Both the position numbers and the translations under genes were made by a program. Below the pieces are notes generated by a model. That model did no database searches. It was not told the origin of the DNA and was given only the letters and a program-made list of their open reading frames with translations. 7,906 nt of DNA. Source: Candidatus Cloacimonadota bacterium. Lineage in GTDB: Bacteria; Cloacimonadota; Cloacimonadia; Cloacimonadales; Cloacimonadaceae. Below are positions 5,395 to 7,906 of the stretch, piece after piece. The stretch spans positions 1 to 7,906 of the forward strand of contig JAAYQD010000184.1 in assembly GCA_012519465.1 (NCBI GenBank), read 5' to 3'. Position 1 is the stretch's first letter. The number at the start of each line of letters is the position of its first letter.

Positions 5395-6207
5395 CTAATA
5401 ATAGTAGATATCATGGTTTTTGTTTTTGAGCTGTCGCAATAGATCCTGATAAATCTGTTGGTGACGCTCGGCAAGAATGCGCTCTCTGATCTGGCTCTTA
5501 AAATCTTCAAAGCCGGCATCCTGGTTGCTTTCCTGGGTGCCGGTGTAACGGATGATATAAAATCCGTCATCGGCGGCGAAGTAGCTGATTTCTCCTTCCT
5601 TGATCTTGCGTGCCTGCATCCAAAAGAGGGAATCCGCACCGGTTGCACTCACAAATCCCATCTTACCCAGGCTGATACCGAGGTCTTCGCTGGAATAAGT
5701 GAGAACAGCTTCGTCAAAATCAAGGCCGCCTTTGAGCCGGTTTACCAGCTCGCGAGCTGCATTCTGGTCTTTCATATATATTCTTTGCACGTTATATTCC
5801 AATAGTTTGCCCTTAAATTCTGCCTGATAGAGGCGGTAGTAATTGAAGAGCTCATCTTCGGCAATGTGGATATTGCTGAGGCGGTTTGCTATCAGGGCAT
5901 TGGCCTTCACTTTCTTGACGGCGTTTTCCATCTTTAGTTTGATTGCCAGATCATCGCTCAAACCCAAGGCATCGGCTTCATTTGCCAATAAGGTGAGATT
6001 TACCCAATCCTCCAAATACTTCTTGCGCTGGCTGTCATCCATGGCATTCCACTGTTCATCGTTAAAGTTTGCACGAAAGCTTTGCAGGGAGAGAATCTGG
6101 GAGCCCACCTGCGCGGCGGGGGTCACAGCTTCTTTTTCCTTTTTGCAGGAAAGCGTGACAAGAAGGGCAACCAGCAGTATCAGATAACAAAGTCTTTTCA
6201 TTGGCAT
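5395..6207 (-). CDS. Parvulin-type (PpiC/SurA-like) lipoprotein
   Basis: This 270-residue protein looks like a lipid-anchored periplasmic folding factor related to PrsA/PpiC/SurA. The signal peptide (1-20) ends in a lipobox-like VTLSC with Cys21, followed by a charged linker; Thr at -3 is less usual than Leu. A helical SurA-N-like region follows (about 38-125), rich in charged residues. The parvulin fold spans about 137-222, recognisable by LDFDEAVLTYSSED (162-175), LGKMGFV (180-186) and the closing DGFYIIRYTG (214-223). Both catalytic histidine positions are substituted: RIYM stands where HIL is expected (about 142-145), and Tyr217 replaces the His of FGFH. It is therefore probably a binding chaperone rather than an enzyme (inference). 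The ATG directly abuts the previous stop (TAA-ATG) with no ribosome binding site, so translation is likely coupled; an in-frame ATG at codon 3 is an alternative start. The C-terminus ends in three tyrosines. Confidence 0.85.
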   Translation of the reverse strand: MPMKRLCYLILLVALLVTLSCKKEKEAVTPAAQVGSQILSLQSFRANFNDEQWNAMDDSQRKKYLEDWVNLTLLANEADALGLSDDLAIKLKMENAVKKVKANALIANRLSNIHIAEDELFNYYRLYQAEFKGKLLEYNVQRIYMKDQNAARELVNRLKGGLDFDEAVLTYSSEDLGISLGKMGFVSATGADSLFWMQARKIKEGEISYFAADDGFYIIRYTGTQESNQDAGFEDFKSQIRERILAERHQQIYQDLLRQLKNKNHDIYYY

Positions 6208-7440
6208 TTATAGGAATGGTGGAGTGTAAATCACCCTCAATTGTGGTTTCTTGCCATCGGGAGCGTTCAGGAAGTGTTCCAGCTCCAGGATGCCAAAGTT
6301 GTTCATCTCCTGAGTGCTGTGGATCACAAAGCCGTGGTTATCCTTTTTCCCATTGACGATGCCTTGCATAAAGGCGGTGATATCCACCCTCACGGTGCCT
6401 TCTTTCACCACGGAGATATTGCCCAGGACGCTTTCGTTCATGTCCTCATCAGCTATGTGCATCGCCGTATTGATGCTATCGCGGGTAACCATGGAGGCTT
6501 TGATGGAGTATGGGGTGAGATCTCCATAATAGGGGTTGGATTTGGTGTGGAAGATCAGCTCCGCCTTGTTGATGGTTACCTGTTTGCGCCTTGTTTCAGA
6601 TAACACATTGCCATCTGCATCCTTGAAGTGGTTCCAATTATCCACCCATCTCACAAAGATGCGGCTGGGGCTGAGATTGCCGATAATCCATTCGTCTGCC
6701 AGCACTTGGTTTTGGGCGCCTTTCACCCAATAACTGTCTTTTCTGGCAGCCAGGGAGTATTCACTGTCGGAATCTGCCACGTTGCCGTCTTCATCCACCT
6801 TGCGGTATTTGAACCTGAGCTGGGGTCCGCGTCCGGCGGTGGAGATGGAGCGGAATTCCATGAAGGCATCGGCATTGGTCTTGATCACAATGGAAAGGCT
6901 GTCCTCCCCGGCTTCATTGAGGGCTGTGAGAACATCTATGGGGAAGGGTATCTTGACGTCGGTTCCGGAGGTGTTGATGCTATCCGGCAGGGTAAAGCTC
7001 TCTCCAATCTGTTGTAAAGGGAGGTCCATCGCCTCATGAGCGGAATCCTCCCGCCAATGCTCGTTAATTTTATAGAGGGTGAGGGTGGTGGGATTCCTTT
7101 CAGAAAGCGGTGCCTGACGCAACACGGTGAGCTTGATCCAGGCGGAATCCGCATAGCTTCTGGAGGTGGGAATCACAAAATCCTGGGGCAAAGAGACAAA
7201 TTGCATGATGGCAGCTGCCTGCATACCATTATAATCACCACAGAGGAGGTTGCTTTCCGAGCCTTTGATATTTACATCCAGCCCATAACTGAAGCCAAGA
7301 TCAAAGCTTTCCTCATCCACAAAGATAATTGGCTCCACATCACTGAAGCTGTTGCCAGTGGGATTGCTCTTTTGTGTGCATGCTATCAGACTTGTTAAAA
7401 TCAGGATCAGCAAGCCGGTTATCTTCATCATTCTTTCCAT
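6208..7440 (-). CDS. Lipoprotein of unknown function with two related beta-rich domains
   Basis: I do not recognise a specific function for this 410-residue lipoprotein. A short signal peptide ends in a good lipobox (SLIAC, Cys21) and is followed by a polar, Ser/Asn-rich linker. Two domains of similar plan follow, about 60-213 and 246-408. Each has an aromatic or charged opening (SNLLCGDYNG; ADEWIIGNLS), a strand of the type WIKLTV or KAELIF, a later VKIPFPIDVL or VRVDITAFMQ strand, and a closing PQLRFKYRK (206-213) or PQLRVIYTP (399-407). This resembles DNRLRE-like or CBM96-like beta-sandwich modules in which the PQLRV-Y strand closes the domain (family recollection, not a search). It would face the periplasm or cell surface. 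As first gene of the operon it uses an AGGAT site (7453-7449) inside the AT-rich origin DNA. ATG codons at residues 4 and 5 are alternative starts, the first preceded by GGAAAGA. Confidence 0.8.
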   Translation of the reverse strand: MERMMKITGLLILILTSLIACTQKSNPTGNSFSDVEPIIFVDEESFDLGFSYGLDVNIKGSESNLLCGDYNGMQAAAIMQFVSLPQDFVIPTSRSYADSAWIKLTVLRQAPLSERNPTTLTLYKINEHWREDSAHEAMDLPLQQIGESFTLPDSINTSGTDVKIPFPIDVLTALNEAGEDSLSIVIKTNADAFMEFRSISTAGRGPQLRFKYRKVDEDGNVADSDSEYSLAARKDSYWVKGAQNQVLADEWIIGNLSPSRIFVRWVDNWNHFKDADGNVLSETRRKQVTINKAELIFHTKSNPYYGDLTPYSIKASMVTRDSINTAMHIADEDMNESVLGNISVVKEGTVRVDITAFMQGIVNGKKDNHGFVIHSTQEMNNFGILELEHFLNAPDGKKPQLRVIYTPPFL

Positions 7441-7475
7441 ATTATATAATCCTAATAATTTAGATTTATTAAATT
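7441..7475. other. AT-rich DNA unwinding element, also leader of the envelope operon
   Basis: Only three of these 35 bases are G or C (7451, 7452, 7463). The stretch lies directly beyond the DnaA-trio array, where duplex melting begins in characterised origins. It also carries the ribosome binding site (AGGAT, 7453-7449 on the minus strand) of the lipoprotein gene starting at 7440, so the melting element and the mRNA leader share the same DNA. Confidence 0.8.
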
Positions 7476-7489
7476 AGTAATAGTAGTAG
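7475..7489 (+). promoter_or_regulatory. DnaA-trio array, five triplets
   Basis: Read 5' to 3' on the plus strand this is TAG TAA TAG TAG TAG; read 3' to 5' it is GAT GAT GAT AAT GAT, the published DnaA-trio form. It ends four bases from a perfect DnaA box (7494-7502) whose TTATCCACA strand points toward it. In the B. subtilis basal unwinding system, DnaA bound to the boxes extends along such triplets as a filament on single-stranded DNA. Order, strand and orientation agree here; the spacer (TCAC) is short. Confidence 0.82.
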
Positions 7490-7493
7490 TCAC

Positions 7494-7510
7494 TGTGGAT
7501 AAGTGGATAA
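7494..7510 (-). promoter_or_regulatory. Paired DnaA boxes next to the trio
   Basis: TGTGGATAA at 7494-7502 is a perfect box on the minus strand. AGTGGATAA at 7502-7510 differs at one base, and the two share one base, giving two boxes in the same orientation eight bases apart. A head-to-tail pair beside the trio is what the basal unwinding system requires to load DnaA onto the strand to be melted. Confidence 0.88.
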
Positions 7511-7568
7511 ACGGTCAATGTTTTTTTTAAACCTCGGTGTTTTCTATCTTGCGGTTCATCTCCCAATC

Positions 7569-7588
7569 TGTGGATTACCTGTGGATAA
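7569..7588 (-). promoter_or_regulatory. Second pair of minus-strand DnaA boxes
   Basis: TGTGGATTA (7569-7577) has one mismatch to the consensus and TGTGGATAA (7580-7588) is perfect. They are spaced 11 bases start to start, about one helical turn, so both would present DnaA on the same face of the DNA. They have the same orientation as the pair next to the trio, from which they are separated by 58 bases containing a run of eight T (7521-7528). Confidence 0.85.
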
Positions 7589-7608
7589 GTGGGGCTTTTG
7601 GGCGGTAG

Positions 7609-7617
7609 TTATCCACA
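7609..7617 (+). promoter_or_regulatory. DnaA box, perfect, plus strand
   Basis: TTATCCACA is present in full. This is the point where box orientation flips: it faces the minus-strand box ending at 7588 across 20 bases. Confidence 0.88.
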
Positions 7618-7647
7618 TTGATATGTGAATGTCTCTTCCAAAACCAG

Positions 7648-7666
7648 TTATCCACATCTATCCACA
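7648..7666 (+). promoter_or_regulatory. Pair of plus-strand DnaA boxes
   Basis: TTATCCACA (7648-7656) is perfect and CTATCCACA (7658-7666) has one mismatch. Their starts are ten bases apart, close to one helical turn, as in the minus-strand pair at 7569-7588. Confidence 0.86.
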
Positions 7667-7682
7667 TGCTTATACTCACAAC

Positions 7683-7691
7683 TGGGGATAA
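7683..7691 (-). promoter_or_regulatory. Weak DnaA box
   Basis: TGGGGATAA differs from TGTGGATAA at one position that is normally strongly conserved. It is included because it closes the cluster, but it may be a chance match. Confidence 0.4.
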
Positions 7692-7834
7692 ACCTCTCAT
7701 ATTTAATTTATCTTCCATGCAGGCAACACCAAACGATGCCTGTTGCATGATTGCTGTATGTGTGTTCATATATTTCCACTTCTGCTCTGCTGTCAAGAAA
7801 GAATTGATTGTTTTCACAGCATAAGAGCTATTTG
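7692..7834. other. Intergenic stretch with no recognised element
   Basis: Between the last DnaA-box-like site and the promoter candidate of the rightward gene I see no box, hairpin with T-run, RNA gene or credible reading frame. The open frames crossing it on both strands are short, lack plausible ribosome binding sites and run through the DnaA boxes. Confidence 0.6.
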
Positions 7835-7863
7835 TTGACGAATATGGGCTGGAAATATATATG
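7835..7863 (+). promoter_or_regulatory. Sigma70-type promoter candidate for the rightward gene
   Basis: TTGACG (7835-7840) as -35 and TATATG (7858-7863) as -10 are separated by 17 bases, each one mismatch from consensus. Transcription would start near 7870, leaving a leader of roughly 25 bases before the ATG at 7896. No full DnaA box overlaps it, so direct autoregulation by DnaA at the promoter is not evident. Confidence 0.6.
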
Positions 7864-7867
7864 GTTA

Positions 7868-7884
7868 TCATACACAAAGTATGA
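7868..7884 (+). promoter_or_regulatory. Hairpin touching the ribosome binding site of the rightward gene
   Basis: TCATAC (7868-7873) and GTATGA (7879-7884) form a perfect 6-base inverted repeat with loop ACAAA. The right arm includes an in-frame ATG (7881-7883) and touches the AGGAGA ribosome binding site (7884-7889). It could be a protein-binding operator or a weak RNA hairpin modulating initiation; the stem is AT-rich and the loop too small a clue to decide. Confidence 0.4.
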
Positions 7885-7895
7885 GGAGATGGACG

Positions 7896-7906
7896 ATGTA
7901 TAATCA
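7896..7906 (+). CDS. Start of a rightward gene, probably dnaA, cut by the window edge
   Basis: ATG at 7896 is preceded by AGGAGA (7884-7889) with a six-base spacer, an excellent ribosome binding site. Only Met-Tyr-Asn and two bases of a fourth codon (His or Gln) are visible, so the product cannot be identified from sequence. The call of dnaA rests on position: the gene next to an oriC of this type, reading away from it, is very often the initiator gene. dnaN or another origin-linked gene is possible. An in-frame ATG at 7881 is a less likely start because it lies ahead of that ribosome binding site. Confidence 0.5.

Follow-up and report, generated by a model that had tools for sequence, protein, structure and literature searches.

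Architecture of the locus

The window, by which we mean the whole stretch of DNA analyzed here, comprises 7906 bases and represents the entire contig C37 of a draft genome (G000) distributed over 406 contigs. Close to one of its ends, a 466-base intergenic gap separates a gene for a lipoprotein-like protein from the contig end, and all the elements of the putative origin described below lie inside this gap (Table 1). The original prediction had drawn attention to two DnaA boxes at 7494-7510, four bases away from five DnaA-trios at 7475-7489, which are present exactly so, and to a run of 35 bases with only three G/C, which is confirmed at 7441-7475. Further, it had likened the order, strand and polarity of these elements to those of the Bacillus subtilis basal unwinding system, and inspection of the sequence recovers the same arrangement. 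A basal unwinding system calls for three or more correctly oriented DnaA-trios no farther than 16 bp from a box; the window has five TA[AG] triplets at a distance of 4 bases.

Table 1. Features of the intergenic gap and its flanks, in window positions; steps of the trio ladder and distances with a plus sign are counted from box 1.
Feature	Position	Strand	Remark
Lipoprotein-like gene, 410 residues, DNRLRE domain	6208..7440	-	Borders the putative origin on its trio side
AT-rich element, 3 G/C in 35, predicted unwinding region	7441..7475		Eight least stable 40-mers start at 7437-7444
Five DnaA-trios, TAG TAA TAG TAG TAG	7475..7489	+	Step 1 is nearest the box
Spacer TCAC, 4 bases	7490..7493	+	
DnaA box 1, reads TGTGGATAA	7494..7502	-	- strand TTATCCACA, perfect
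DnaA box 2, reads AGTGGATAA	7502..7510	-	- strand TTATCCACT, one mismatch; base 7502 common to box 1
GGTCAA, family-conserved	7513..7518	+	At +19; two bases past box 2
T-tract (T8)	7521..7528	+	3' of GGTCAA
DnaA box, 1 mismatch	7569..7577	-	Same-direction box at +74/+75/+76 in 21/13/7 of 46 family loci
DnaA box, perfect	7580..7588	-	At +85/+86/+87 in 18/12/6 of 46 family loci
DnaA box, perfect, opposite orientation	7609..7617	+	Recurrent place ~+113 to +116 in family
DnaA box, perfect	7648..7656	+	Recurrent place ~+152 to +156 in family
DnaA box, 1 mismatch	7658..7666	+	Recurrent place ~+162 to +166 in family
DnaA box, 1 mismatch	7683..7691	-	Recurrent place ~+188 to +191 in family
Small ORF, first 11 bases; in-frame ATG also at 7881	7896..7906	+	Cut by the contig end; whole in sister genome G002

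Beyond the pair, the stretch 7569-7691 holds six further boxes with no more than one mismatch to TTATCCACA, along with a weaker version, TTATACTCA, at 7670. The window as a whole contains 21 matches to TTATNCACA with at most one mismatch, as against 5.96 expected (sd 2.59), and the least stable of its 7866 40-mers are two tied segments starting at 7440 and 7443. Comparison with Rfam at gathering thresholds returned no match.

Conservation of the module within the family

The lipoprotein gene is present in 47 of the 49 genomes of the family, and the sequence upstream of it was read for 46 genomes: G003 and G029 gave no match, G010 has only a fragment of the gene, and in G019, where the gene is split over two contigs, the flank was taken at the 5' part. 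The anchor for comparison was the best-scoring place in each flank, under a score that favors boxes as well as trios and takes the spacer to be 4 bases long; hence, conservation near the anchor is somewhat favored. Next to this gene, a module is recognizable in 45 of the 46 loci, the exception being the degenerate version of G047 (L113), in which trios 2-5 are largely lost and little is left beyond trio 1 and box 1, the latter with one mismatch. With the assumed spacer, trio 1 is TAG in all 46 loci, both trios 1 and 2 have a central A in 45, and the last base of trio 5 is G without exception, all five of these steps being inside the anchor score. The trio-proximal box is the better match of the pair in 22 loci, the equal of its partner in 18 and the worse one in 6; in the window too it is the better. 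Further boxes recur at about +75, +86, +114, +153, +164 and +190 from box 1, and the family mean A+T amounts to 0.84 on the AT-rich side versus 0.57 at +45..+74. The window has the highest module score of the 46 loci, with that of the sister genome G002 coming second. Separately, a single T in the AT-rich stretch beyond the last trio (window position 7466, -28 from box 1) is kept in 45 of the 46 loci.

Relocation of dnaA away from the site

In 43 of the 46 family flanks, dnaA is found on the same strand as the lipoprotein gene and ends 267-497 bp from the start codon of the latter. An adjacent dnaA is missing in G000, with its 466-base flank to the contig end, and in G002, where 1500 bases hold no dnaA; the flank of G036, which runs 438 bases to the contig end, is too short to tell. 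The dnaA-flanking position implied by the original prediction is thus not borne out, as the gene in G000 resides on another contig (C104, L002, at 5970-7373) between ORF222/mtnA and NIF3. In G002 it is likewise placed between ORF222/mtnA and NIF3 on C32 (L068), and a single contig of this genome displays the lipoprotein gene, the putative oriC, the small ORF and tldD in that order. The window matches G002 at 96.8% over 587 bases, up to the start of the small ORF. In G005, tldD and the origin are 58 kb apart, with NIF3 on a separate contig, and in G006 they are at 357 kb and 431 kb, respectively. A further contig of G000 (C168, L304, 1-900) carries the small ORF and tldD; its first part differs, with only 81% identity to the window end over 140 bases, and it does not join the window to tldD; this copy could be either a paralogous copy or a strain variant. 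Near the moved dnaA, two long ORFs (L002 137-4295) resemble by eye what we take to be the motifs of a DNA methylase and a restriction subunit, which hints at a plastic region around the gene.

The loss of the dnaA neighbor raises the alternative that the box cluster of the window is a leftover DnaA-titrating or regulatory site, with replication now starting at the relocated dnaA on C104, which still has a pair of perfect boxes, 11 bases apart, upstream of it. However, G005 and G006, which have dnaA in its usual place, show the same pair, and hence it looks like an element of promoter control. Further, neither strand of C104 was found to have two consecutive TA[AG] at up to 16 bases from TGTGGATA, whereas the module of the window is intact and, as noted above, tops the scores of the family ahead of G002. 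We therefore regard a transfer of the origin to C104 as very unlikely, and favor the reading that the origin-opening site stays in place when dnaA moves off. It is tempting to view the module as having been strengthened in compensation for the moved gene; as both top scores come from one lineage, this is only an idea.

A switch of GC skew near the locus had also been anticipated. In the one-contig relative G006, the first 1.8 kb of the record contain both dnaA and the module, and the skew was computed from 40 stretches covering ~35% of the genome. Third-position skew has its best cut at 56 kb (permutation over cuts, p 0.002), and a cut at the record start takes rank 5 out of 40; raw skew has its best cut at 2.016 Mb (p 0.009), and the record start takes rank 7 out of 40. 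To within some hundred kilobases, and thus only coarsely, the sampled skew agrees with an origin close to the beginning of the record. The signal in G006 is weak, and seven stretches flanking the site in G005 show mixed skew signs.

A family-specific element next to the box pair

Just past the box pair, 42 of the 46 family loci carry a GGTCAA motif, at +19 in 41 of them and at +18 in one. As this motif is outside the anchor score, its fixed place confirms the register of the alignment. It is followed by five or more T within 5 bases in 37 of the 46 loci, is missing in three members of a single genus (G045, G046 and G047; loci L027, L031 and, for G047, L113), and is altered in G044. Per-locus counts are used here; the pattern GGTCAA + T5 + box is too narrow, recovering 10 of the 124 genomes, all of them from the family, with one control match. 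In the 21 Cloacimonadota loci from outside the family, no GGTCAA occurs up to 33 bases from the box pair. Among at least 118 matches from the cross-phylum search described below, just one has it no more than 25 bases from the pair, and this is accounted for by L143, i.e., contig C4 of the family member G004, in which GGTCAA is present. In another family, G055 (L309) and G056 (L310) display GTCAAG directly past the box pair, a partial likeness to GGTCAA.

G000 encodes two proteins of the HU/IHF family. Against the IHF consensus, WATCARNNNNTTR, the usual form of the element in the family differs at three specified positions as judged by eye; the match is poor, and an IHF site is not favored. We propose that GGTCAA and the T-tract may constitute a family-specific accessory site, which could act through bending or through a second protein; as such, it is a candidate target of a new factor acting at the origin.

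Given that the conserved stretch is situated directly upstream of the lipoprotein gene, and that GGTCAA reads TTGACC on the - strand, with an A-tract before it and a likeness to a -35 hexamer, it could in principle be a promoter or leader of that gene, with the boxes serving as an operator. However, a scan of 7350-7906, which covers sigma-70 type promoters, yielded 0 sites as against a shuffle mean of 2.1. Additionally, the module is 53-119 bases from the start codon across the 46 family loci (sd 16.8), in contrast to the fixed offset between GGTCAA and box 1: the spacing of the motif is fixed relative to the boxes rather than to the lipoprotein gene. The trio-box geometry also occurs in other phyla. 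On the strength of the sigma-70 scan and the offsets, a lipoprotein promoter is unsupported, and we give this explanation hardly any weight relative to that of an origin.

Conservation beyond the family and the question of chance

Searches of 124 genomes of the phylum with the exact pattern GTAGNNNNTGTGGATANNNGGAT recovered one match each in 25 genomes, and none with the reversed control. A longer pattern with up to three mismatches detected the module in 63 of the 124 (43 of 49 in the family and 20 of 75 outside it; control 2 of 124), leaving 61 genomes, 6 of these in the family, with no match to it. All 21 matches outside the family, which come from 20 genomes, one of them with two contigs, are 208-278 bp from dnaA. 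As the pattern search is blind to dnaA, this proximity tests independently whether the pattern marks the region of dnaA and the origin. In 19 of the 21 cases the module also has a lipoprotein gene homologue next to it, the exceptions being G121 and G072 (short flank). The conservation of boxes, trios and spacing in relatives, which the original prediction had named as a check, is accordingly seen in 45 of the 46 family loci and in the 21 loci outside the family. In one genome, two contigs (L314 and L315, from G070:C119 and C303) each contain a module and a dnaA gene, perhaps reflecting a strain mixture.

Across all genomes, the pattern TAGTAGNNNNTGTGGATNNGTGGATAA retrieved at least 118 stretches with the same trio-box geometry, and the taxa among the 80 titled matches listed include Bacillus, Thermus, Chloroflexi, Poribacteria, Balneola and Bdellovibrionales. 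The 4-base spacer and the one-base overlap of the boxes are seen directly in Bacillus and Thermus loci. dnaA was detected in 69 of these at least 118 matches, always at a distance of 2.5 kb or less, and was not detected in 49, some of which are truncated stretches; four or more boxes are found nearby in 89. The short spacer and the shared base had earlier been remarked upon as peculiarities. Both are present, but their standing as an oddity is to be rejected: with at least 118 stretches from diverse genomes, Bacillus among them, sharing the geometry, the tight spacing of the window is a common form.

The module was additionally compared with dinucleotide shuffles of the 466-base intergenic stretch (n=1000) and with shuffles of the whole window (n=300). 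In its strict form, i.e., five TA[AG] no more than 16 bases from a box with at most 1 mismatch, it appeared in 0/1000 and 0/300 of these, respectively, and three TA[AG] near a box were likewise seen in 0/1000 and 0/300. The loose rule of the published survey (NAN x3 and a box with up to 2 mismatches) has no power here and by itself furnishes no evidence, since 594/1000 gap shuffles also conform to it. While this last figure is what would be expected if AT-rich intergenic DNA merely held a few box-like words, a chance origin of the module is rejected as practically negligible in view of the absence of the strict forms from all the shuffles, the conservation in register within the family, and the dnaA synteny in 21/21 of the dnaA-blind matches outside it.

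The trio ladder

Across the 67 Cloacimonadota loci (46 in the family and 21 outside), step 5 of the ladder retains the central A in 66 and the final G in all 67. A final G at step 6 is found in 1 of the 67, i.e., the ladder ends at step five. Step 3 is degenerate: its central A is kept by 65% of the 46 loci in the family and by 57% of the 21 others; in the former, steps 1-5 are all part of the anchor score, and in the latter, steps 1-2 belong to the search pattern and the data are unbiased from step 3 on. Among the matches listed from other phyla (L141-L258), which are unequally related to each other, the final G of the 116 loci of sufficient length for tabulation declines gradually, reaching 76% at step 5 and 40% at step 6. 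In these same 116 loci, TAG occupies trio 5 in 72, trio 3 in 58 and trio 4 in 41.

Five uninterrupted triplets, emphasized in the original prediction, do exist in the window; however, five consecutive TA[AG] are found in just 3 of the 46 family loci, indicating that the uninterrupted run is not the conserved feature. Rather, the pattern of the ladder suggests that DnaA may read step five and skip step three. The set of 67 loci, whose ladders have five steps, always with the G of the fifth and with a degenerate third, may be viewed as a natural mutagenesis series, which bears on the number of DnaA subunits needed by the first filament.

DnaA and a model for origin opening

The DnaA protein of G000 is of the ordinary type, scoring 502.6 bits with TIGR00362 against a cut-off of 343.9. 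Opposite positions 190 and 264 of chain 8btg, which we take to be B. subtilis DnaA on the basal unwinding element, it retains an isoleucine and an arginine, and so keeps the ssDNA-binding and arginine-finger residues. According to PMC8287927, the I190A and R264A mutations of B. subtilis DnaA abolish unwinding. In the Bacillus model, as presented in PMC6669920, PMC8287927 and PMC10721633, box-bound DnaA extends along the trio strand and stretches that strand.

The locus thus combines the observed elements, in conserved order and register, with synteny to dnaA and the lipoprotein gene across relatives, and with an ordinary DnaA. As the box pair, the trios and the AT-rich segment recur beside dnaA in relatives, this is likely the place at which the bacterium starts copying its chromosome. 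More specifically, to judge from comparative sequence evidence, we are confident that the segment 7441-7691 represents the unwinding half of the chromosomal origin (oriC), of the basal unwinding type and likely opened by DnaA. ATP-DnaA would bind the box pair at 7494-7510, from which a filament would assemble along the trio strand at 7475-7489 at three bases per step, to reach and melt the AT-rich DNA at 7441-7475; the opened DNA would then allow the helicase to be loaded. The further boxes at 7569-7691 could raise the local concentration of DnaA, the GGTCAA-T-tract would serve as the family-specific accessory site, for bending or a second protein, and in G000 DnaA would presumably act at the site from its relocated gene.

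A more elaborate version of this model can be offered only tentatively, and we are inclined to doubt it as a whole. Herein, a ladder of exactly five trios, of which DnaA would read steps one, two and five but not three, might set the length of the first filament; a second initiation factor might dock at the GGTCAA-T-tract of the family or bend the DNA there; and the origin of this lineage might work with a moved dnaA, having the strongest module of the family as compensation. Irrespective of this, the module is real and is a well-conserved Cloacimonadota representative of a known system, and in one lineage dnaA has departed from it. This places a probable origin-opening site of textbook type in the phylum.

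Relationship to known origins

The open-access papers searched yielded no experimental origin for Cloacimonadota, no origin of replication for Cloacimonas acidaminovorans, and no link of the DnaA-trio to Cloacimonadota or to uncultured or candidate phyla; the accessible text of PMC7111523 contains nothing on a Cloacimonadota origin, and an earlier prediction for an origin of this phylum might exist. The basal unwinding system itself is widespread, having been predicted in 1755 of 2070 origins according to PMC8287927. The suggested extension of the mechanism to a new lineage stands insofar as the site is found in Cloacimonadota; broad conservation of the system had already been reported there.

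The closest counterpart is the basal unwinding system of the Bacillus oriC (incC, boxes 6/7 and trios), which, as described in PMC6669920 and PMC8287927, likewise features a box pair, a 4-base spacer, TAG/TAA trios and AT-rich DNA. Four Bacillus loci (L169, L174, L179 and L196), retrieved by this very geometry, have the 8-base box offset and one shared base of the window. There are also differences. The published peak of 10-13 bases between the trios and the better box points to the farther box, whereas the better box of the window, as in 22 of the 46 family loci, is the nearer one. Further, the ladder in Cloacimonadota stops at five steps and is degenerate at the third, and the window, known to date from its sequence, has the GGTCAA and T-tract past the box pair and lacks an adjacent dnaA.

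The oriC of Escherichia coli carries an IHF site and a DUE, and likewise has, close to the boxes on the DUE side, a conserved element that is no DnaA box, followed by a further box array. In contrast, the GGTCAA-T-tract fits the IHF consensus poorly, and the predicted opening site of the window is of the trio type. The IHF site and DUE of E. coli are also named in PMC6669920.

With respect to the position of dnaA, a comparable situation is offered by Synechococcus lividus PCC 6715, for which PMC6323995 describes an origin box cluster away from dnaA. As in the window, a box-cluster origin is set apart from the gene for its initiator; here, however, the split is confined to one lineage among the genomes read, against a background of 43 of 46 family flanks in which dnaA has remained adjacent.
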